From: Alphaproteobacteria bacterium
Lineage (GTDB): Bacteria; Pseudomonadota; Alphaproteobacteria; Acetobacterales; Acetobacteraceae
Length of the DNA stretch: 41,587 bases
Assembly (NCBI GenBank): GCA_026400815.1
Contig: JAPLOI010000055.1
Span: forward strand, 1-41,587
Direction of reading: 5' to 3'
In this document: in pieces, positions 4,510-32,528 of the stretch
How the letters are laid out: the number at the start of each line of letters is the position of its first letter
Position numbering within the stretch: position 1 is the stretch's first letter
Notes under the pieces: model-generated
The model's database searches: none
What the model saw: the letters and a program-made list of their open reading frames with translations, nothing else
Told to the model about the DNA's origin: nothing
Program-made: the position numbers and the translations under genes

Positions 4510-7301
4510 ATCCTCTCGCTCCACCCAGCTCCAGCTCCGGCATCACGGGTATCACCCGTTTCAGACTGGACAGATGCACCCGCCCCTATGCCCCCTATGA
4601 CGCCTATGCTTGCTGGCTGCTGCTCTGATTGGCGTAGAGAATATGTCGCCGCCCCCCACTTGCCGATTGAAGCCTTCCGAACCAACACGAACCCAGCCAT
4701 TCTGGTACCAGCAAGCTTCTCTAATGCCGCAGCAATGAACTGTCGCCCACGCCCCTGCGGGTCTAGTATCTCGATCACCCGTTGGTCGACCAGAGCCGCC
4801 GTGATTGGCAAGTCGTGATGGCATTCCCACCACATAGCAAACACCTCGCCGACCATCTGGCGCCTTGTGTCACGAGACTTCGCTTCGCTCACACGGTCCG
4901 CAGGGTCTGTACAACCCAAAGCCAACAGCGGATCACGCACTTGCTGAGCCCAGTCGCGAAAGCTCCCCATAGGGCGACCACGAGGCAGGTCGTTCATTGC
5001 CCCCCAACGCCAAATCGTCAAAACGTCAGCCAGCAAGGCGGCCCGGTCCGCACTCACCTCTGCCAATATGTCCCCTGTAAATGGGCGGGCCTCAGGATCT
5101 TCGCTACCAGGATCAAGCTCAACGGTAATGAACCGGCGCGCTAAGTCCTCCGAGACCGTAAGGCCATTTCCTGTCAAGACGATAAACGCCGACGCGTTGA
5201 GCAACACCATCTCCGACCGCCCCAGAACCCGTATCCTCGCGGGTCGCTCGGTGATTGCACTCGCGAGAAGGTCTGACCGGAGAGACTGGCCGTTCAGGTT
5301 GTCAAGAAACAGTACAGGCCCACCCAACATGAGCTCCGAGGCGATCCGCTTCTCCAGCTCGTCGACAGTGCTGCCTCCAGTCACCGCGTGAGGCGGGCGG
5401 CCAAACGCTATGCTGCAGATGCAGCGAGCCAGCAGTCCTTTTCCTGCACCAGCACCTGACATCGACGCCGCGGTCAGCATCAGACCAGGAGCAAGAGGCA
5501 GGCTCGGACGGCACACGGCCGTCAGCAATCCACACAGGAATGCGCTTTCGTCACGCCCAGGCTTGAGACTAACGTCGACCACGGGCACTGAGCTACTCTC
5601 AAGGCTGATGAAAGTGGCGTCGGCGAACGCGAAAGTCCGGAAGCGCTCGCGCAGACGAGTCAGCGCTGCCTTCGCCTCGAAAAGCATAGGCATCATAGGG
5701 ACCATAGGGGTTACGTCGGGAACATGCTCCGAGTAAAATCCAGTGCCTGGGTCGTAGCCGTCACCCGAAATTATTGTGCCGTCGGGCCGCAGCAATGGAG
5801 CATTGGCTATCCCGTTAAGCGGCCGCAGTTTCCATTCGCCTTGCATGTCCAAATACAGCCGCGCAACACGGTCTGACAGCGTCACGGGGACTACGGTACT
5901 CTGATCGGCTTTTCGTGTTCGTGCGTGTGGCCGCGCAACTCGGTGGACCTCACGGACTATCCCCTCAACTCGAAGCAGCTGGGTCATCACACCCCCAGTC
6001 CGCTCGTCAAAGACCAACCGAACCGGAACTCCGCGATCGTATAAGTTGTCTTGTGTCGCCAAAATGTCACGAATCCTTATGGCGGTCGCGGGCAAATCGG
6101 CGCCATCTACTAGCAGGTCTGTGCGTTCAGCCGTCCGGCCTGCCTTATTTTCTTCGGCTTGTTCGTTCGTGTCCGCCCGTCCCTGATCGTACGACCGCAA
6201 GGCACATCGCGCGGCGTGGCGGAGCTTCTGATCGAGGCTTACCCAGCCACCGGCAACGATTTTGCCGTGGGGATAAGCGAAGAGAAGCAGGCCGACCTCC
6301 TTCGGCGAGAACCCCGCGGCCTTCAGCATCGCAGCCAGACTAAAATCCGCTGCACTGCGGCTGTCGTCGAGGCCCCGCTCGGTGAGGTCATCGACTAGGC
6401 CCGACCAGCGATCCGACAGACGGTTTCGGCTCGATAGCTGCGCCAGCAACCGCAGTTTGAGGAACAGCGGCAGTGATTCCACGCTGCCGATCCGCTCAGC
6501 ACCAGCGCTGCGAAGCTCGCCTATCAAAGCAGCCACATCACCGTCCGACTTCGGGTTGGTCGTGTTTGCGGACACGCCCTTCTTCGGCTTGCGGCGGACG
6601 AGGTCGCTATCAGCGAACCGGGCATCAAAATGGGGGCCAAGAGCAGCGGCCTGGGCCGCAGAATAAGTGATCGGCTCGCAGTGGATCAGCTTTGCATGGG
6701 ATACCCCACGGCCCAAGCGTCGCTTTTTCGCGCTCGGAAAATTGACCGTGCCTGGCAGGCGTAGAAGGCGGTCGATATTCTGGGTCCCGCCTGCTCCGAG
6801 TGCGGCCTCAATATCGCGGGTTTCGGCTTCAATCCGATCGATTGCCTCCGCCGAAAGCGGCTCACGCTCCACAACCCAAATCAGTTGAAGGCCGTTCCCC
6901 GAGTCGACAACCGCCGTCGGCGGAAACTCTTGGTCCTCCGCTAGGGCCACTGCTAATCTGGAAAGCCTAGCGCGCTCTTCTTTCAATGGAATTTCTGCGT
7001 CGAGTGGGTCGATGTCGGCGAAGCGAGTGAGCGCCGCAACCATAGTACTCTTCCGGGGCTTGGACACGCACCCGAAGGGTGTTTCATTGGGTTGGAAGTA
7101 AACGTTTTTCTCGTTGAGTTGGCATTTTTCTATCCAATCCAACGCATCTCCCAGGTGCCCAAGCGAATAAGTCGTTGTTGTCGTCGGGCCATCAGGGACG
7201 ATTGCCACGAGCGTGATGTGCGGCGCACCCGTACGCTCAAGCCAAAATTTTATAAATGTATTACATACATGTAAATCCGGCGTAGCGGAAGATGTCATCA
7301 T
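4506..7301 (-). CDS. RepB-type DNA primase fused to AAA-like helicase
   Basis: A 931-aa replication protein for the element. Residues 1-200 look like an archaeo-eukaryotic-type RepB primase: the metal-binding FADIDP (D96, D98), then VVDSGNGLQLIWVV, then IDRLLRLPGTVNFPSAKK. The middle (about 250-400) is helical with no clear match. The C-terminal half carries a P-loop GAGAGKG (616-622), the Walker B segment PVLFLDN (662-668) and a later LTGNGL...DLARRFI block, as in phage/island SF3-like helicases. The ATG at 7301 overlaps the upstream Toprim-like gene's stop (ATGA), and the next gene's ATG overlaps this stop, so the three form one translational unit. It probably primes and unwinds the excised circular element. 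I infer this from domains only. Confidence 0.85.
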   Translation of the reverse strand: MMTSSATPDLHVCNTFIKFWLERTGAPHITLVAIVPDGPTTTTTYSLGHLGDALDWIEKCQLNEKNVYFQPNETPFGCVSKPRKSTMVAALTRFADIDPLDAEIPLKEERARLSRLAVALAEDQEFPPTAVVDSGNGLQLIWVVEREPLSAEAIDRIEAETRDIEAALGAGGTQNIDRLLRLPGTVNFPSAKKRRLGRGVSHAKLIHCEPITYSAAQAAALGPHFDARFADSDLVRRKPKKGVSANTTNPKSDGDVAALIGELRSAGAERIGSVESLPLFLKLRLLAQLSSRNRLSDRWSGLVDDLTERGLDDSRSAADFSLAAMLKAAGFSPKEVGLLLFAYPHGKIVAGGWVSLDQKLRHAARCALRSYDQGRADTNEQAEENKAGRTAERTDLLVDGADLPATAIRIRDILATQDNLYDRGVPVRLVFDERTGGVMTQLLRVEGIVREVHRVARPHARTRKADQSTVVPVTLSDRVARLYLDMQGEWKLRPLNGIANAPLLRPDGTIISGDGYDPGTGFYSEHVPDVTPMVPMMPMLFEAKAALTRLRERFRTFAFADATFISLESSSVPVVDVSLKPGRDESAFLCGLLTAVCRPSLPLAPGLMLTAASMSGAGAGKGLLARCICSIAFGRPPHAVTGGSTVDELEKRIASELMLGGPVLFLDNLNGQSLRSDLLASAITERPARIRVLGRSEMVLLNASAFIVLTGNGLTVSEDLARRFITVELDPGSEDPEARPFTGDILAEVSADRAALLADVLTIWRWGAMNDLPRGRPMGSFRDWAQQVRDPLLALGCTDPADRVSEAKSRDTRRQMVGEVFAMWWECHHDLPITAALVDQRVIEILDPQGRGRQFIAAALEKLAGTRMAGFVLVRKASIGKWGAATYSLRQSEQQPASIGVIGGIGAGASVQSETGDTRDAGAGAGWSERI

Positions 7302-7837
7302 TGCACCTTCCCCTTGGCACCGGAGATCGGATGCTGGCCGTCTTTAGGCAAAACCAAAAATGTCTGAGGCAAACGCCCTTCCGCCGCAATGACCGCCATC
7401 CAAGCAGATAGGGTCCTTGCGTTACATTCAATCAATAGGCAGTGACCATTTTCACTCGCCGCCTTTACGGCTAGGTCGTAGTGCCAAATCTCAGCGCCAG
7501 ATGCATGGAGTAAGATCTTCTTTGACCAGCGCACAATAACTTTTATTGCGGGAAAGCCTGCCGGTCCGCGATCCATGCCGTCATCGTCGCCGACAAGAAT
7601 GACAGTCGGCTTAGCAAGTTTGTTTTTAAGTAGGATCTCGACTTCTGCGGGATCAACATTTGTACTGATTGGCAGAAGTGCAATTTTTCCGGCCTTCATC
7701 GCGCGCAAAAGGTGCGCGGAGCCTATTGCTCCCTCCCGGAGGCAACCGATAATCATTTCGTCGATGGTCAGCGTGCGGTTGTGCTGCGGTAGCGCCGGTC
7801 CAAAACTGGAAGTGTTCTTGTCGTGTTTGGGCGTCAT
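7298..7837 (-). CDS. Toprim-like domain protein, element-borne
   Basis: 179 aa. The central part has VILVGDDDGMDRGPAGFPAI, with an acidic DDD turn after a hydrophobic strand. This resembles the second Toprim motif (DxD), though a convincing glutamate motif is less clear. Proteins of this size with a Toprim-like fold often sit directly upstream of RepB-primase/helicase genes in alphaproteobacterial islands, and the two may work as a primase pair. The ATG start has GGAGA about 7 bases upstream. The stop overlaps the start of the primase-helicase. The assignment rests on context and one motif; an unknown alpha/beta protein is the alternative. Confidence 0.5.
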   Translation of the reverse strand: MTPKHDKNTSSFGPALPQHNRTLTIDEMIIGCLREGAIGSAHLLRAMKAGKIALLPISTNVDPAEVEILLKNKLAKPTVILVGDDDGMDRGPAGFPAIKVIVRWSKKILLHASGAEIWHYDLAVKAASENGHCLLIECNARTLSAWMAVIAAEGRLPQTFLVLPKDGQHPISGAKGKVQ

Positions 7838-14656: not shown

Positions 14657-15124
14657 TCACGGACGGCGGCCTGTCCCGTTCGGGGCGCGCTTCGGCGCGG
14701 CGGTTTCGGCGGGCTGGGGCTCGCGCCGGCGGCCGAACAGCTCCAGCCGGTGGGATACGAGGTCGAAGCCCAGGCGGGTGGCGATGGCCTTCAGCACGCG
14801 CTCGTGCTCCGGGTCCTCGAATTCGATGACATGGCCGGTCTCCACGTCGATCAGGTGGTGGTGGTGGCCGTGCTCGGTGGGTTCGTAGCGGGCGCGGCCG
14901 CCGCCGAAATCCCGGCGTTCCAGGATGCCGCGCTCCTCCAGCAGGCGCACGGTGCGATACACGGTGGCAATCGAGATGCGGGCATCCAGCTGCACCGCGC
15001 GGCGGTACAGCTCCTCCACGTCGGGATGGTCGTCGGCGTCTGACAGTACGCGCGCGATCACGCGGCGCTGCCCCGTCATCTTGAGGCCCCGTTCGACGCA
15101 GAGGCGTTCGATGCGGCTTTCCAT
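14657..15124 (-). CDS. fur: Fur-family metal-responsive repressor
   Basis: 155 aa. An N-terminal winged helix (MTGQRRVIARVL...ISIATVYRTVRLLEERGIL) is followed by a dimer domain with a His cluster H85/H87-90 (EHGHHHHLIDVETGHVIEF) and EFEDPEHE, the ligands of the regulatory metal site. There is no CxxC pair, so it is not a typical Zur or PerR with a structural zinc site. In alphaproteobacteria this branch acts as Fur or Mur (manganese). The ATG at 15124 has GGAG at good spacing; an upstream ATG at 15160 has no such site. It heads the fur - acyltransferase - dehydrogenase operon. Confidence 0.88.
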   Translation of the reverse strand: MESRIERLCVERGLKMTGQRRVIARVLSDADDHPDVEELYRRAVQLDARISIATVYRTVRLLEERGILERRDFGGGRARYEPTEHGHHHHLIDVETGHVIEFEDPEHERVLKAIATRLGFDLVSHRLELFGRRREPQPAETAAPKRAPNGTGRRP

Positions 15125-15189
15125 CCGATCTCCCGTGCCCACCGTGGCCCACGCCCCCAATTGATGCCTTCAGGGCATGGCGGCGCCCA

Positions 15190-25350: not shown

Positions 25351-26757
25351 TCAGGCACCGCCCATCTCCGGCCGTAGCGCCACGCCACGCCGCGCCACCT
25401 TGCCGGCCATCGCGGCATCGTGGGTGACGAGCAGCAGCGCCATGCCGGTTTCGGCCACCACCTCGCGCAGCAGCTCCATCACCTCGGCCTGGGTCACCAG
25501 ATCCAGGCGCGAGGTCGGCTCATCGGCAAACAGCAGCGCGGGGTCCAGCAGCAGCGCCCGCAGCAGGGCGAAGCGCTGCAGCTCGCCGCCGGACACCTGG
25601 TCCGCGCGGCGGGCCAGCAGGGCCGGGGCCAGGCGCAGGCGCTCGCGCAGCCGTGTGGCCAGGACGGAATCGAGGCGATGGCGCCGGATCACCGCGGCCA
25701 GCGCATCGCCCAGAGTCATCGCCGGGGCAAAGGCGGCGAGCGGATCCTGGTAGAGTTTCTGCAGCGCGAAGGCCGAAAGGCCGCCGCGGCGCCGCACCGT
25801 GCCGGCATCCGGCGGCACGAGGCCCAGCAGCATGTTGCCCAGCGTGGACTTGCCGGTGCCGCTCGGCCCGGTCAGCGCCACCACCTCGCCCGCGCCCAGC
25901 GCGAGGTCGATCCCGGTGAACAGGCGCTGCGGCCCGTAGCGCTTGGCCAGCCCCTCTCCCTCCACCACGGCGGCGCCGGCGGTGCGGTGCGGCCAGGGCG
26001 CCCAGGCCTCCGGCTCGGCGGCCAGCAGGCGCCGCGTGTAGGGATGCTCCGGCGCGGCCAGCACGCGCGCCACCGGGCCCTGCTCCACGATCTCGCCTTC
26101 CAGCATCACGGCCAGCTCGCCGCCCAGGGCGCGTGCCATGGCGATGTCGTGGGTGATCACCAGCAGCGTGGCACCGCGCGCCACCTCCTCTGCCAGCAGT
26201 GCCGCCACGCTGTCGCGCAGTGCGGCATCCAGCCCCTTGGTCGGCTCATCCGCCAGCAGAACCGGCGCACCGGCGATGCGGGTGGCGGCGAGGGCAACGC
26301 GCTGGCACATGCCGCCGGAAAGCTGGAACGGAAAGCGGCGCTCCGCCGGTGCGAGCCCCACGGCGGCCAGCGCGGCGGCGGCGGCCCGGCGCGCCGCCGG
26401 CCACGGCAGCCCGGCCACGAAGCGCGGCACCTCGGCCACTTGCGGCATCGCCGGCATGGTGGGGTCCAGCGCCGCCCAGGGTTCCTGCGGCAGCATCGCG
26501 AGCGCCCGGCCCCACAGCGCGCGGCGCCCGGCGGTGTCGCGCGCCGGCAGCGCGTCGGCGCCGAGGCGGATCGCGCCGGTGGCGTGCAGCTCCGCCGGCA
26601 GCGTGCCCATCACCGCCTGGGCCAGCAGCGACTTGCCGGAGCCGGTCTCGCCCAGGATCACCAGGGGCACGCCGGGCTCCACCCGCAGCGTGGCCGGTGC
26701 CACGATCCGCCCCTGCGGCCCATGCACCGCCACCTCGTCGAGCGCCAGCACCGTCAT
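25351..26757 (-). CDS. ABC importer ATP-binding protein, two fused ATPase domains (Dpp/Nik/Cnt type)
   Basis: 468 aa, two complete ATPase modules in one chain. Module 1 has GETGSGKS, the signature LSGGMCQRVALA and Walker B LLADEPTKGLD. Module 2 has GPSGTGKS, the signature VSGGELQRFALL and Walker B LFADEPTSRLD. This equals DppD plus DppF (or NikDE, CntDF) fused. Many importers of this class keep them separate, although fusions occur. The ATG at 26757 overlaps the stop of the permease (ATGA). It is the last gene of the SBP - permease - permease - ATPase operon and drives uptake of its ligand across the inner membrane. Confidence 0.92.
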   Translation of the reverse strand: MTVLALDEVAVHGPQGRIVAPATLRVEPGVPLVILGETGSGKSLLAQAVMGTLPAELHATGAIRLGADALPARDTAGRRALWGRALAMLPQEPWAALDPTMPAMPQVAEVPRFVAGLPWPAARRAAAAALAAVGLAPAERRFPFQLSGGMCQRVALAATRIAGAPVLLADEPTKGLDAALRDSVAALLAEEVARGATLLVITHDIAMARALGGELAVMLEGEIVEQGPVARVLAAPEHPYTRRLLAAEPEAWAPWPHRTAGAAVVEGEGLAKRYGPQRLFTGIDLALGAGEVVALTGPSGTGKSTLGNMLLGLVPPDAGTVRRRGGLSAFALQKLYQDPLAAFAPAMTLGDALAAVIRRHRLDSVLATRLRERLRLAPALLARRADQVSGGELQRFALLRALLLDPALLFADEPTSRLDLVTQAEVMELLREVVAETGMALLLVTHDAAMAGKVARRGVALRPEMGGA

Positions 26758-27563
26758 GTGCCGCGCCCCCCGGCGGCGAGCTGCAGGCCCAGCACGCTGG
26801 CGGCCAGCAGCAGCCCGGGCATCAGCACGTGCCAGGGCGCCTCCTCGTAGTAGGGCAGCAGCTCCGTCATCATGCTGCCCCATTCCGGCGTGGGCGGGCG
26901 CAGGCCGATGCCGACGAAGGCGAGGGCGGAAAGCGCGGTCACGGCGGCGGCGGCGCTGAAGCCGAGCAGCGTCAGCAGCATCGGGCCCAGCTCCGGCAGC
27001 AGGTGGTGGCGCAGCAGATGCCAGGGGCCGAGGCCGAGCAGCCGCGCCGCCTCGGCCTGCGGGCGGGCGAAGACGGAGCCGGCCACGCTGCGGGTGAGGC
27101 GGAAGTATTCCACCCAGAAGGCCAGCGAGAGGCCGAGATACAGCGGCAGGAAGTCGCCGGGCGCGAAGGCGGCGAAGATCAGCACCAGCAGCAGGCCGGG
27201 CAGCGCCATCACCCCGTCGGCCAGCCCCACCAGCACCCGCTCCACCCAGCCGCGGCGCCAGGCGGCGAGCAGGCCCAGCAGCAGGCCCGGCACCGCGGCG
27301 CACAAAGCCGTTGCGGCGGCGAGCCCGAGCGAGAGGCGGGTGGCATGGGCCAGCCGCGCCAGCATGCTGCGGCCCAGGTGGTCGGTGCCCAGCAGGTGGC
27401 CCGGTGCGCCGGGCGGCAGCAGGGTCGCCGAGAGGTCCTGGCGCATCGGGTCGCCGGTCAGCAGCGGGACAACCAGGCCAAAGCCCAGCACCGCGCCCAG
27501 CAGCGCCAACCCGATGACGCGCGTGCCCCTCATGCCCACCCTTCTCATGACGGCCCTTCTCAT
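26754..27563 (-). CDS. ABC importer permease, DppC/NikC type
   Basis: About 269 aa. It has a hydrophobic N-terminal helix (TRVIGLALLGAVLGFGLVV), the family segment HLLGTDHLGRSMLARL, and an EAA loop ARLLGLGPWHLLRHHLLPEL followed by membrane helices. There are three in-frame ATGs at 27563, 27548 and 27533, lying in a near-tandem duplication (ATGAGAAGGG repeated). The first overlaps the stop of the preceding permease (ATGA) and is chosen; the others have AAGGG sites too. It works as a heterodimer with the DppB-type permease. Confidence 0.88.
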   Translation of the reverse strand: MRRAVMRRVGMRGTRVIGLALLGAVLGFGLVVPLLTGDPMRQDLSATLLPPGAPGHLLGTDHLGRSMLARLAHATRLSLGLAAATALCAAVPGLLLGLLAAWRRGWVERVLVGLADGVMALPGLLLVLIFAAFAPGDFLPLYLGLSLAFWVEYFRLTRSVAGSVFARPQAEAARLLGLGPWHLLRHHLLPELGPMLLTLLGFSAAAAVTALSALAFVGIGLRPPTPEWGSMMTELLPYYEEAPWHVLMPGLLLAASVLGLQLAAGGRGT

Positions 27564-28507
27564 GACGGCGGGCGCCGGCGCGGATCGATGGCGAGGCAGG
27601 TCAGGTCCACCGCCGCGTTCAGCGCCACGAAGATCAGGCCCATGGCCAGGGCGGTGCCCTGCACCATCGGCACGTCGCGCGCCACCACCGCGTGCACCAG
27701 CGCATGGCCGATGCCGGGCCAGGCGAACAGCGTCTCCACGATCACCACGCCTTCCACCAGGGTGACCAGCTGCACGCCGAGATAGGCGGTCACCGGCACG
27801 GCCGCGTTGCGCAGCGCGTGGCGGCGGATCACCGCGCCCTCCGGCAGGCCCTTGGTGCGGGCAAAGGCGAGGTAGGGGGAATGGGCCACCGCCACCATGG
27901 CATCGCGCGCCACGCGGCTGGACACCGCGGCGAGGCCGATGGCGAGCGTGGTGGCCGGCAGCACCACTTCCCGCCATCCGCCCACCCCCGCGGCGGGCAG
28001 CCAGCCCAGCTGCACCGCGAACACCATCATCAGCACCAGCCCGATCACGAAGGCCGGCACGGCGCGCAGCACGGCGCCAACGGCCATACCGGTCCGGTCG
28101 GCGGCCGAGCCCGGCCGCATCGCCAGCAGCACGCCAAGCGGCGGGCCGACCAGCGCGGAGAGCAGCAGCGCCACTACAGAGAGCAGCAGCGTGTGGCCCA
28201 GATAGACCGACAGCTCCTCCACCACCCGGTCGCCGCTGACCAGCGACACGCCGAGGTCGAACCGCGCGAGATCCCCAAGCCAGGCACTGAGCAGCTGCCA
28301 CCAGGGCCGGTCCAGCCCCAGCTCGGCGCGCACCGCCTCGGCCGCCGCGGTGTTCACGTGGTCCATGCCGTAGCGCCCGGCGGCGACGCGGTAGGCCATG
28401 TCGCCCGGCAGCAGCCGCACCATCAGGAAGCAGGCGATGCCCACCGCCATTGCCACCAGGGCGGCCTGCAGCAGGCGCGCGCCAAGCGCGCGGATCAATC
28501 CGCCCAT
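27560..28507 (-). CDS. ABC importer permease, DppB/NikB type
   Basis: 315 aa. An N-terminal helix (ALVAMAVGIACFLMVRLLPG) carries the typical RLLPGD motif. The periplasmic part follows, then VVALLLSALVGPPLGVLLAM, the EAA-type loop GLPEGAVIRRHALRNAAVPV, and the C-terminal VEGVVIVETLFAWPGIGHAL block. The ATG at 28507 lies 13 bases inside the end of the substrate-binding gene, and its own stop overlaps the next permease. The tight overlaps show one translational unit. Confidence 0.92.
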   Translation of the reverse strand: MGGLIRALGARLLQAALVAMAVGIACFLMVRLLPGDMAYRVAAGRYGMDHVNTAAAEAVRAELGLDRPWWQLLSAWLGDLARFDLGVSLVSGDRVVEELSVYLGHTLLLSVVALLLSALVGPPLGVLLAMRPGSAADRTGMAVGAVLRAVPAFVIGLVLMMVFAVQLGWLPAAGVGGWREVVLPATTLAIGLAAVSSRVARDAMVAVAHSPYLAFARTKGLPEGAVIRRHALRNAAVPVTAYLGVQLVTLVEGVVIVETLFAWPGIGHALVHAVVARDVPMVQGTALAMGLIFVALNAAVDLTCLAIDPRRRPPS

Positions 28508-30024
28508 CGCATGCCGGCGATGCGGTAGGAGATCTCCAGCGGGTCCACGCTGCCGCCGGCGGTGCGCCGGCTGAAGGCCACTGGGTAGTCGTACCAGGCG
28601 ACCGGGATCACCGGCATCTCGTCGTGCAGGATGCGGGCGATGCGCTGGGCCAGGGCGCGCCGCGCGGCGGGGTCGGCCTCCTCGCCCATGCGCGCGGCGG
28701 CGGCCAGCAGCTCTGGGCTGGACCAGCCCATGGCGCCCCACTCACCGCCCTGGGCGCCGAAATCCTGCAGCACGGTGCCGAGCGGGTCGGGTACCAAGGC
28801 GAGGTTGCGGGCATACAGCGCCATCTCCAGCGTGCCGTCCGTGTGGCCGGCGGGGATCTCCCCGCTGTTCACGATGGCGACCTGCAGGTCGATGCCGGCC
28901 TCGCGCAACTGGCCCTGGATGGCGGTGGCCAGCACCGGCAGCTCCGGCCGGTCGGTGAAGGTGCGCAGCGTCACGCGGAAGGCGCGGCCGTCTCGGGCAC
29001 GGATGCCGTCCGGCCCGGCGCGCCAGCCGGCCTCGTCCAGCAGGCGCTGCGCGGCGGCAAGGTCGCGGCGCGGCGGCGGCAGGTCGGCGATGTACCAATC
29101 CGGCAGGGCCGGCGGGAAGAACTGGTTGGCCGCACCCTCCGGGCTGCGCAGCAGGGCACGGGCCATGCCGTCCCGGTCCAGCGCCAGCGCCACGGCGCGG
29201 CGGACGCGCACATCGGCGAAGAAGGGCAGGTTGGCATTCAGCTTCAGCGCCCGGGTGCGCGGGATCGGCACCGTCACCACTTCCACGCGTGCGTTGCGGC
29301 GCAGCCGGTCCACGGTCTCTGGCGCCAGAGTCGTCACGATTTCCGCCTGGCCGCCTTCGGCCATCGCGGCCCGTGTCTCGCCACGGCCGACCGCGAGGTA
29401 CGACACGCGCTCAATGGCCGGGGCCGGGCCCCACCAGCCGGCGAAGCGCTCGGCATCCAGCCGTTGCGGGGCCAGCAGGTCGGTCAGGCGATAGGGCCCG
29501 GAACCGATGATCGCGCGCACCGCGCCACCCTCGCCATAGGAAGCGGGGGCCAGCACGATGGCCCCGGAATGGGCCAGGAAGGCGGGCAGGGAGAGGAAGG
29601 GCTGGCGGGTGCGCACCACCACCTCGCCCGCCTCCGCGGTGATGGCCTCCACTGGCGCCTGGGCCAGCGGGCCGGGCTGGGCGCGCGCGCGCACCAGCGC
29701 CGCCGCCACCGCCTCGGCCGTGACCGGCGTGCCGTCGTGGAACGTGGCACCCGCGCGCAGGGCGAAGCGCCAGGCCAGCCGGTCGGCGTCCAGCCGCCAG
29801 GCGCGCGCCAGCAGCGGCACCAGGGCCCCTGCGGCATCGGTGCCGACCAGCGTTTCGGCGATCTGCATCCGCTGGAACACGTAGCCGGAGCGTGCGGGAT
29901 CGAGACCGCCGATCTCCCAGGGCGTGACCACGCGCAGGGTTCGCACGGGGGCCTGGGCCCGGGCTGTGCCGGGCAGGACCCCGGGGGCAGCGGCGAGGGA
30001 GGCCAGCAGGGTTCTGCGCTTCAT
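28495..30024 (-). CDS. ABC importer substrate-binding protein, SBP_bac_5 (peptide/nickel/opine-metallophore class)
   Basis: 509 aa. A signal peptide (MKRRTLLASLAAAPGVLPG...ARAQA) is cut near residue 24. The family 5 fold follows: VVTPWEIGGLDPARS, a LARAWRLDAD...FALRAGATFHDGTPVTAE block, SGPYRLTDLLAPQ, and VRRAVALALDRDGMARALL. This class binds peptides, Ni complexes, or opine-type metallophores (CntA). The leader is very short: GAGG lies about 6 bases before the ATG, and a perfect 19-bp Zur-like palindrome begins 11 bases upstream of the ATG. The likely role is scavenging a metal or metal chelate under zinc limitation. The ligand itself is inference. Confidence 0.9.
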   Translation of the reverse strand: MKRRTLLASLAAAPGVLPGTARAQAPVRTLRVVTPWEIGGLDPARSGYVFQRMQIAETLVGTDAAGALVPLLARAWRLDADRLAWRFALRAGATFHDGTPVTAEAVAAALVRARAQPGPLAQAPVEAITAEAGEVVVRTRQPFLSLPAFLAHSGAIVLAPASYGEGGAVRAIIGSGPYRLTDLLAPQRLDAERFAGWWGPAPAIERVSYLAVGRGETRAAMAEGGQAEIVTTLAPETVDRLRRNARVEVVTVPIPRTRALKLNANLPFFADVRVRRAVALALDRDGMARALLRSPEGAANQFFPPALPDWYIADLPPPRRDLAAAQRLLDEAGWRAGPDGIRARDGRAFRVTLRTFTDRPELPVLATAIQGQLREAGIDLQVAIVNSGEIPAGHTDGTLEMALYARNLALVPDPLGTVLQDFGAQGGEWGAMGWSSPELLAAAARMGEEADPAARRALAQRIARILHDEMPVIPVAWYDYPVAFSRRTAGGSVDPLEISYRIAGMRWAD

Positions 30025-30034
30025 GACGCCTCAA

Positions 30035-30053
30035 GATGTTATACTATAACATC
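30035..30053 (-). promoter_or_regulatory. Zur-like operator upstream of the SBP-ABC operon
   Basis: GATGTTATAGTATAACATC (minus strand) is a perfect 9+1+9 palindrome in otherwise GC-rich DNA. Its core ATGTTATANTATAACAT equals the Zur consensus I know from gammaproteobacteria. It overlaps a -10-like TATAGT and lies 11 to 29 bases before the start codon, where a repressor would block transcription. Confidence 0.65.
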
Positions 30054-30281: not shown

Positions 30282-30711
30282 ATGACGCTTCCGGCTCTGG
30301 CTGCCAGGGCAAAATTGCCCCGGATCCTCTCGCTCTGGTCCACCAGCATCATATTCGCCGTTGCAGTGATGCTGCCGTTGCTGACCCATATGGCGGTCAA
30401 TATCGGCCAGTCCTTCACGGCGGCCCGGCTCGATGCCGAAAACAACCGCATGGCGGCGGCCAGGGTGGCCGCGGCTGGCTGGCGTTCGAGATTGCGCCCC
30501 AGCTGTTCGGAACCCTCGGTCTGGCCCGGCTGCTGGACCAGGATGAGGTGCTGACCGTGCGAGACCGGGCCGGGCGGTTGTTCTGGCGCACCTATGCCCA
30601 TGATGTGGGGGAACCCCTGCCCGACAGCATGGCCGGTGCGCTTGCCTCGGCGGGCGGCGCCGGGGTCTTCCGCAACATCTCGATCCTGACGAAAGAGGCA
30701 CGGACGCTGGC
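30282..30711 (+). pseudogene. sensor protein remnant (membrane N-terminus, frameshifted, 3' truncated)
   Basis: The first frame gives MTLPALAARAKLPRILSLWS, then TSIIFAVAVMLPLLTHMAV, one membrane helix, then NIGQSFTAARLDAENNRMAA. Near 30475-30485 the sense continues in the next frame (LAFEIAPQLFGTLGLARLLD, QDEVLTVRDRAGRLFWRTYA). Such a layout suggests the N-terminal sensor part of a signalling protein such as a histidine kinase or diguanylate cyclase. The gene is cut at about 30711 where fliF sequence begins on the other strand. The 228 bases before it (30054-30281) hold no gene; I see only small hairpins there (GGCTGCC/GGCAGCC at about 30180-30205). Confidence 0.5.
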
Positions 30712-32346
30712 CTTCACCATGCTCTCATCCTCGCCCGCATCGCCGCCGGCCAGCGCCAGCGCGGTGCCAGACATGCCGCCGCCCATTCCTGCCATTCCTC
30801 CGCCGCCGCCCCCGCCGCCGCTGCCGGAGGGTCCCTCCAGCAGCCGCGTCACGTCGTTCGCCAGGCCCAGGGAGGCCGCGGTGATCGTGCCATCGGCCCC
30901 GATCGCCATCGCACCCCCGCCCGGCAGCCCCGCCACGGCCGAGGCCGGCAGCGCCTTGTTGCCCAGCTGCGTCACCCGCAGCACCATCGGGCGGAACACC
31001 ATCAGCAGCGCCAGCACCGCGATCAGGCCCACCACGGCGGTTTGCGCCATGCGCGTTACGTCGGAGGCATCGATGCCCAGGCCCAGGAAGCCGCGCGGCT
31101 CCAGCCCGGCCATGTCGGCATCACCGGCGAAGCGCATGGAAACCACTTCCACCTGGTCGCCGCGCGCGGCGTCGAAGCCCATCGCGCTGCGCACCAGCCG
31201 GCCGATCCGCTCCAGCTCCTCCGCCGTGCGCGGCTTCCAGGCCAGCACGCCATCGGCGCCCTTCTCCTCCGTGCCATCGACCAGCACGGCGATCGTCACG
31301 CGGCGGATCTGCGGCTGCTCGCGCACGATGGTGCGCACGGTCTTGCCGATCTCGTAGTTGGTCGTCTCTTCCTGCCGCGCTTCCTGGGTGCCGGAATTCT
31401 CCTTGCCGGCATCGGCGTTCGGCAGGTTGTTTTGCACGGAGACGTTGGCGGCCTGCTCCGTGGTCTTGCTGTTGTCGGTCACGCTCTGGGTGCTGCGCAC
31501 CACCTGGCCCTCGGGGTCGTATTTCTCCTGCGTCTCCTGCACGCGGTCGAAATCCATCTGCACGTTGGCCTCAACGCGCACGCGCCCCTGGCCCAGCCCG
31601 CGCTCCAGCATCTCCTCCACCGCGCGCGACAGGCGCATCTCGGTGGCGCGGCGGATCTCCTCCGCCCCCATGGCGGCGGCCGACGGCCCCACCGCTTCCC
31701 CGGCGCGCGCCAGCAGCGTGCCGCGGCTATCCACCACGGAGACATTGCGCGCCCGCAGCCCCGGCACCGCGCCGGCCACCAGGTTTACGATTGCCTGCAC
31801 CGCCTCGCGGTCCAGCCGCCCGGCGCCCGCGGTGGTGAGCATCACGGAGGCCTGCGCATCCTGCTTGTCGCGTGCAAACGGCTCGCGCCGCGGCAGCACC
31901 AGGTGAACGCGCGCCGCCCGCACGCCGGAGATGGTGCGGATGGAGCGCGCGATCTCGCCCTCCAGCGCCCGCGTCTCGGCAATCTTCTGCTGGAACTGGC
32001 TTTGCGTGATGCCGTCGCCACGGTCGAGCAGCTCGTAGCCGATGGAGCCGCCGCTCGGCAGCCCATCCCGCGCCAGGGTCACGCGCAGCCGCGCCACCTG
32101 GTCGGCCGGCACCAGGATCTGCGTGCCGCCGGCGCCCAGCTGGTGCGGGATCTTCTGCTTGTCGAGGATATCGACGATCTGCCCGGCCTCGCGGGCATCC
32201 AGTTCCGAATACAGCAGCGCCATCCGGTCGTTGCCGCCGCGCAGGGCGAGCATGCCCAGCAGGCCCAGAAGGCCCACCGCCACCACGCCCATGGCAATCA
32301 GCCGCGCGGCGCCCAGGGCCTTCAGCCCATCCAGCACCGCGTTCAT
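30592..32346 (-). CDS. fliF: flagellar MS-ring protein FliF, C-terminus replaced
   Basis: 584 aa. FliF forms the MS ring at the base of the flagellum. The ATG at 32346 has AGAGG at good spacing; an in-frame ATG at 32388 lacks one. The first membrane helix (LIAMGVVAVGLLGLLGMLAL), the ring-building domains (IPHQLGAGGTQILVPADQVA, SIRTISGVRAARVHLVLPRR, TNYEIGKTVRTIVREQPQIR) and the second helix (AVVGLIAVLALLMVFRPMVL) are intact. After DESMVK (about residue 545) the conserved cytoplasmic FliG-binding end (normally ...VEGQ..ASS...HPEE) is missing. A 39-residue tail read from the antisense of the dead sensor gene takes its place. The protein should not bind FliG normally. No other flagellar gene is in view. 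Confidence 0.9.
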   Translation of the reverse strand: MNAVLDGLKALGAARLIAMGVVAVGLLGLLGMLALRGGNDRMALLYSELDAREAGQIVDILDKQKIPHQLGAGGTQILVPADQVARLRVTLARDGLPSGGSIGYELLDRGDGITQSQFQQKIAETRALEGEIARSIRTISGVRAARVHLVLPRREPFARDKQDAQASVMLTTAGAGRLDREAVQAIVNLVAGAVPGLRARNVSVVDSRGTLLARAGEAVGPSAAAMGAEEIRRATEMRLSRAVEEMLERGLGQGRVRVEANVQMDFDRVQETQEKYDPEGQVVRSTQSVTDNSKTTEQAANVSVQNNLPNADAGKENSGTQEARQEETTNYEIGKTVRTIVREQPQIRRVTIAVLVDGTEEKGADGVLAWKPRTAEELERIGRLVRSAMGFDAARGDQVEVVSMRFAGDADMAGLEPRGFLGLGIDASDVTRMAQTAVVGLIAVLALLMVFRPMVLRVTQLGNKALPASAVAGLPGGGAMAIGADGTITAASLGLANDVTRLLEGPSGSGGGGGGGGMAGMGGGMSGTALALAGGDAGEDESMVKASVRASFVRIEMLRKTPAPPAEASAPAMLSGRGSPTSWA

Positions 32347-32528
32347 CCGAGCCTCTGTCGCGTATATCGTGAAGACACGTGGGGCCACATGGCCGCGGGA
32401 TCTCCTGCACCGCCGGCGTCCTGCCGGCGGGGCCAGAGTGGCGCCCCCAGGTTTTCCTTAGGTTAACGCCCCGGCATTTTCTGCCGGGCGATCACGTCAC
32501 GAAGCGGTTCAGGCGGCTTGTGTTGCTG

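Follow-up and report, generated by a model that had tools for sequence, protein, structure and literature searches.

The window (the whole 41,587-nucleotide stretch of DNA analysed here, contig C22 of the genome of a freshwater bacterium) carries a four-gene operon for a substrate-binding protein (SBP), two permeases and a fused ATPase of an ATP-binding cassette (ABC) transporter, preceded by a palindrome that fits the operator of the zinc repressor Zur. We consider it likely that this operon encodes an importer of the NikA (cluster C) type that acquires zinc and is repressed by Zur, with a zinc chelate or zinc-ligand complex as its most likely cargo. The palindrome is shared with znu genes of the same genome and is conserved before many orthologous operons, and a candidate Zur is encoded on another contig. 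The regulatory part of this reading is well supported by these sequence comparisons. The predicted switch matches that of known zinc-uptake genes, and the operon therefore probably encodes a zinc importer.

The original prediction, made from the letters of the window, described an operon of one binding protein, two permeases and a fused ATPase behind the palindrome. Pfam searches bear this out, as do the motifs of the fused ATPase, in which Walker A occurs at residues 36 and 297 and the signature at residues 146 and 388. The four genes (Table 1) are packed tightly, so that adjacent ones overlap or almost touch. Together they provide an SBP_bac_5 SBP, two BPD_transp_1 permeases and two ABC ATPase domains, the components of a cluster C (NikA-class) importer. 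As predicted, Pfam identified no metallophore synthase among the four genes.

Table 1. Genes of the transporter operon and its predicted operator in the window.
Feature	Coordinates	Strand	Evidence
SBP, SBP_bac_5, cluster C, NikA/CntA-like, 509 aa	28495-30024	-	Pfam, NCBIfam, PDB sequence search, AlphaFold/Foldseek
Permease B, BPD_transp_1	27560-28507	-	Pfam, NCBIfam
Permease C, BPD_transp_1	about 26754-27548; start uncertain, 27509 to 27563 possible	-	Pfam, NCBIfam
Fused ATPase, two ABC_tran domains, NikD-like half then NikE-like half	25351-26757	-	Pfam (two stretches), NCBIfam, motifs
Palindrome GATGTTATACTATAACATC, predicted Zur operator	30035-30053	none	Exact sequence match, genome scan, kept in several relatives with differing flanks

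The ATG of the minus-strand SBP gene starts 10 bp after the perfect 19-bp palindrome GATGTTATACTATAACATC, whose sequence is exactly as first reported. Its 17-bp core ATGTTATACTATAACAT (30036-30052) fits the Zur consensus ATGTTATANTATAACAT with zero mismatches, as had been claimed, and is the sole match at three or fewer mismatches across the whole window. No match to the core pattern was obtained in 100 dinucleotide shuffles of the window. The Zur box that we used as reference is a GTTA-N5-TAAC palindrome (PMC4176598), and the operator at the SBP promoter has this form. Several genus sisters conserve the palindrome amid diverged upstream DNA, while G008 has a degenerate copy only. A promoter scan near the operator found no sigma-70-type match.

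Zinc genes and candidate regulators in the genome

Across the genome (5,111,241 bases in 89 contigs, 97.55% complete), the core occurs at three or fewer mismatches in four places, two of them exact, and the reversed pattern occurs in two. The second exact site (C76:3863) precedes an open reading frame (ORF) for a 305-residue outer-membrane-like protein, after which comes a gene of the ZnuA family (Pfam ZnuA, E 1e-83). A third site with three mismatches (C32:10130) is flanked by a znuC-znuB pair and, on the other side, by a divergently transcribed DUF445 gene, which could be a Zur target. The palindrome thus marks zinc genes in the same genome, as anticipated; besides the SBP_bac_5 operon, znuA and znuCB are both present there. 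The fourth site (C37:65841; three mismatches, AT-rich) was judged a chance match because the reversed pattern gives equally many weak places. The third site occupies 5131-5147 of locus L008 (G000:C32), and the DUF445 gene beside it has a Pfam E-value of 6e-91. The 305-residue protein (2925-3842 of L007, G000:C76) has a weak DUF6662 match just below the cut-off; encoded between the exact palindrome and znuA, it is possibly an outer-membrane zinc route in a genome without the dedicated TonB receptor.

A genome search found two Fur-family genes, one in the window and one on contig C18. The product of the window gene (14657-15160, minus strand) has Fur models as its best match and a single cysteine; as originally noted it has no CxxC pair, and we rejected it as the regulator for that reason. 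A separate Zur had been proposed instead, and the protein encoded at C18:12413-12781 fits this role. It has two CxxC pairs, and its top NCBIfam model is Zur (E 2.6e-32; 111.8 bits, under the model cut-off of 167). The gene is located near a COG0523-type GTPase gene, separated from it by a gene that we take to be HisI-like. The C18 gene thus probably encodes a Zur protein, the regulator that had been predicted, and the operator is common to the zinc genes.

Under the mechanism that we propose, zinc-loaded Zur from C18 would occupy the palindrome and block the promoter when zinc is plentiful. When zinc is scarce, Zur would leave, and the SBP, both permeases and the fused ATPase would be made. 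Instead of bare Zn2+, the SBP would most likely bind zinc as a small chelate or in complex with a ligand, for uptake into the cytoplasm by the ABC transporter. Where a relative has a TonB receptor at the head of the operon, that receptor would take this complex across the outer membrane.

Orthologous operons and their neighbours

Orthologues of the SBP (E < 1e-100) are present in 12 of 120 genomes, comprising the genome itself and 119 relatives, with identities of 43-100% that set them clearly apart from many paralogues at 27-37%. A Zur-like site precedes the orthologue in seven of the 12 at three or fewer mismatches and in eight at five or fewer, and is exact in G105, a genome of a different family. 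No Zur-like site was found near the SBP in G024, G052, G032 or G014; in G032, though, the SBP gene follows a TonB receptor gene that has a two-mismatch site in front of it. Counted genome-wide, regardless of adjoining genes, matches with at most one mismatch occur in 35 of the 120 genomes versus two of the 120 for the reversed pattern. In the genus mate G002 the start of the operon is present twice, as diverged copies (L079 and L081); each is oriented divergently to a COG0523 gene and has a Zur site with a single mismatch. The closest G002 match to the window SBP reaches only 46-47% identity.

From a wider collection we took 52 loci (L082-L133), among the best 80 of 514 confirmed stretches, as orthologues. 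They derive from alpha-, beta- and gammaproteobacteria and one Arthrobacter, and most share the layout SBP-permease-permease-fused ATPase. Five of the 52 had no ATPase match above 150 bits, and 39 of the 47 ATPase ORFs passed a strict two-motif test. Seven of the eight that failed are single ORFs of about 475-815 residues that fall short of one motif match, and the eighth (L100) is split. A site with four or fewer mismatches precedes 40 of 69 orthologue SBPs, compared to 5/69 for the reversed motif and 4/44 for distant SBPs; the 69 orthologues were chosen by similarity, include near-identical sister loci and are not independent, and the 44 distant loci include a broken orthologue (L136). This tally used search regions anchored on the SBP start and left out those shorter than 200 bases, namely L121 (an orthologue with a two-mismatch site) and the distant loci L040 and L147. 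The family is rare, being present in 7 of 385 evenly drawn alphaproteobacterial genomes (the genome itself included). In the family of Rhodobacter capsulatus an orthologue occurs in 11 of 394 genomes, and six of the ten loci examined there have a site at 2-4 mismatches near the SBP, a count made without a reversed control. An IS21-type transposase/IstB pair (Pfam) splits the broken operon in L136 (5753-10899), which lacks part of its SBP/permease region.

A TonB-dependent receptor gene stands directly before the SBP gene in 11 of 62 orthologue loci; beyond these, there is one divergent receptor (L126) and one more distant (L127). Pfam confirmed two representative receptors and that of L127. 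In three of the 11 receptor-headed operons (L096, L099 and L114), a site with one or two mismatches precedes the receptor. Several orthologous operons adjoin zinc genes: znuA, znuB and COG0523 in Hydrogenophaga (L091) and Rhodoferax (L093); Zur-like, ZnuA, COG0523 and DUF1826 genes in Microvirga (L122); znu genes in L124 and L130; a Zur-like gene in L206; zigA in Pantoea ananatis (L166); and COG0523 and DUF1826 in G002. By itself, this zinc-gene neighbourhood is weak evidence. In Sphaerotilus natans (L106), a Fur-family gene (7305-7757) that is PerR-like by NCBIfam, below the cut-off, lies directly before the orthologous SBP gene, and a different regulator may act at that operon.

Relation to known systems

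A system of this kind is already known. According to a 2017 report in Front Microbiol (PMC5387054), pden1338-1344 of Paracoccus denitrificans encode a COG0523 protein, two hypothetical proteins, a Ni/dipeptide SBP, two permeases and one ATPase, and are upregulated 8.6- to 16-fold in zinc-depleted medium. Upstream of the pden1341 start, at 26-40 bp, the same report places a palindromic Zur motif of 15 bp, and it describes an in vitro shift of the pden1341 promoter by Zur (electrophoretic mobility shift assay). In the authors' view it is "somewhat unusual" for a cluster C transporter to be controlled directly by Zur, and they leave the specificity of this one open (PMC5387054). Like pden1341-1344, the window operon has its genes in the order cluster C SBP, permease, permease, single ATPase, with a predicted Zur site before the SBP gene. 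It differs from pden1338-1344 in lacking an adjoining COG0523 gene and in the order of its host, and is a further example of this kind in another order. The original statement that no fused-ATPase member under Zur had been described was too strong at the level of the class, given pden1341-1344 with its one ATPase gene (PMC5387054). Besides that paper, we recognised none describing such a transporter under Zur among the open-licence papers that our literature searches listed, and the Caulobacter Zur regulon table has no such transporter (PMC4176598).

Paracoccus aestuarii, a congener of P. denitrificans, has an SBP orthologue at 46-47% identity, and pden1341 is likely to be orthologous to the window SBP. 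The published 15-mer of pden1341 was found in none of 394 sampled genomes. Two loci from the family of R. capsulatus are close in setting to the order COG0523, two hypotheticals, transporter of pden1338-1344. L208 has co-directional ZigA/COG0523, DUF1826, SBP and two permease genes with an ATPase frame of just 156 residues, and in L210 genes for ZigA, the SBP and two permeases are accompanied by a long ATPase frame. A scan of the SBP region, which did not extend to the DNA before ZigA, gave no Zur-like site in either locus (eight mismatches).

NikABCDE belongs to the same transporter class as the window operon, which differs in that one fused ATPase replaces NikD and NikE, in NikA scores far below cut-off and in its zinc-type operator. 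The staphylopine system CntABCDF shares the SBP class, by a distant profile match. It responds to zinc limitation. Its ATPases are encoded by two genes and an operon for opine synthesis adjoins it, whereas the window operon has a fused ATPase gene and no such neighbour. ZnuABC and AztABC have the same predicted regulator and role; unlike theirs, the window SBP is not of the ZnuA family (PF01297) and the permeases are not ABC-3. A second Zur-marked SBP_bac_5 system is present in Rhodobacterales (L139, L144, L150 and L160), with sites of two or three mismatches upstream. Its SBPs are 25-30% identical to that of the window, and its order is SBP-ATPase-ATPase-permease-permease with separate ATPases. 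Three of the four site-positive distant SBPs (n = 44) belong to this second system. In one of its loci, L144, genes for a Zur-like and a ZnuA-like protein lie close by.

Accounts of zinc uptake in Gram-negative bacteria usually centre on ZnuABC. The operons compared here point to a second importer class under predicted Zur control, with SBP and permease families that differ from those of ZnuABC. To the Paracoccus example our analysis adds a wide distribution, a recurrent fused-ATPase layout and TonB-receptor partners in some lineages: one gene order recurs in alpha-, beta- and gammaproteobacteria, at times with its own TonB receptor. The conserved family offers many orthologues for testing the cargo question left by the 2017 paper.

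The binding protein and its cargo

By sequence, the window SBP is nearest to the NikA and CntA types, in line with the Nik/Cnt class first assigned to the transporter. NikA, CntA and SaNikA chains rank above DppA/OppA in a PDB profile search, and NikA structures are the best Foldseek matches by E-value to its AlphaFold model (mean predicted local distance difference test (pLDDT) score 92.7). The SBP scores 195.2 bits against the NCBIfam model Opp5A_nikA (cut-off 600) and 99.2 bits against CntA (E 2e-28, cut-off 800). None of the operon proteins reached the curated cut-offs for NikA, NikB, NikC, NikD and NikE or for CntA, CntC, CntD and CntF, and ordinary membership of NikABCDE or Cnt was rejected on these scores. 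The SBP has zero cysteine and four histidines, and five of its arginines are invariant across 40 sequences; an anionic ligand therefore fits better than a bare-ion site. In the PDB profile alignment, the window SBP does not conserve Arg137, Tyr382, Trp398 and Tyr402 of E. coli NikA, which we take to be the Fe-EDTA contacts of that protein. From these residues we infer a ligand of anionic chelate type, unlike that of NikA.

Several observations weigh against a Zur-repressed zinc importer. No site with four or fewer mismatches lies near the SBP start in 29 of the 69 orthologue loci, so that the expectation of a site at orthologous operons held for many in other families and classes but not for these. 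Eight of the 11 receptor-headed operons have no site before the receptor (at least six mismatches; the search region of L100 was short). A dedicated TonB receptor is absent from the genome itself (best 44 bits) and from genus mates (41-46 bits), which makes a large metallophore less likely in this genome. The excess of zinc-gene neighbours is modest (15 of 70 orthologue loci versus 3 of 25 controls), and the three positive controls include L144, itself Zur-marked. These counts exclude duplicates (L082, L083 and L131), fragments (L135, L136 and L147) and plasmid loci (L162-L166). A separate clustering of the neighbouring genes was swamped by antisense ORFs, and part of its clusters was identified. 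The fold comparison, which uses a predicted structure, does not separate metal from peptide binders: DppA and AppA structures have template modelling (TM) scores of 0.81-0.85, about equal to NikA. Plasmid copies of the operon in P. aestuarii adjoin an annotated zinc ABC SBP gene and metal ABC genes, with two permeases. The Fur-family neighbour on one plasmid matches Fur models (E 3.7e-26) rather than Zur (E 3e-4). We dropped this locus as a case of the operon beside zur and znu and counted no zinc evidence from it. The neighbourhood may concern manganese or iron, because the regulator matches Fur and the metal ABC operon has two permeases.

The alternative that survives best is an operon controlled by Zur that imports a peptide, an amino acid or another zinc-sparing nutrient and not zinc. 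SBP_bac_5 includes di- and oligopeptide binders, the DppA/AppA fold scores are near that of NikA, and the report on the Paracoccus transporter leaves specificity open (PMC5387054). We nevertheless regard this as unlikely, as the sequence profile puts nickel/metallophore binders first, and TonB receptors and znu/COG0523 genes adjoining the operon in some relatives point to metal import. Import of nickel or cobalt under incidental Zur control would agree with the closest curated models, which are of the NikA/NikB/NikC/NikD class; it is made very improbable by scores far under the cut-offs (195 versus 600 bits for Opp5A_nikA), by the presumed NikA ligand residues that are not conserved and by the operator common to zinc genes.

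There is similarly little to recommend an importer of an endogenous opine-type (nicotianamine-derived) metallophore, like Staphylococcus Cnt. CntA is among the matched families, far under its cut-off, and opine zincophore clusters employ dipeptide/oligopeptide-type ABC importers (PMC7438024). Against this, no gene of the NAS family (PF03059) was found in the genome, in a search whose control was positive in Methanosarcina acetivorans, and the four operon genes include no synthase. The opine/nicotianamine link of the original prediction is thus unsupported. A search of the genome for PF10100 (opine dehydrogenase) gave no match, and was uninformative as the controls likewise gave none. That the palindrome is a chance match, or is bound by another Fur-family protein such as that of the window or the non-Zur-like ones beside some orthologues (L163 and L106), is the least credible alternative: the reversed motif also has its two weak places genome-wide, but the exact match shared with znuA, its absence from the shuffles, the excess over the reversed pattern among the 120 genomes and the 69 loci, and conservation in diverged promoters led us to reject chance.

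Beyond a Zur-repressed zinc importer in this genome, a broader proposal is that an unnamed zinc-import family across Proteobacteria, comprising a NikA-type SBP, two permeases, a fused ATPase and an optional dedicated TonB receptor under Zur control, scavenges foreign zincophores, common environmental chelates that its hosts do not make. We put this forward tentatively, as an idea that may well not hold.

Near the operator, positions 30282-30722 of the window hold a gene remnant. In a sister (L070, 7945-10791), the corresponding gene is an open 949-residue frame with PAS domains (Pfam). In the window the gene is broken, with about 300 bp of the sister sequence missing, and the similarity ends near 30722, inside a convergent FliF gene (30592-32388).

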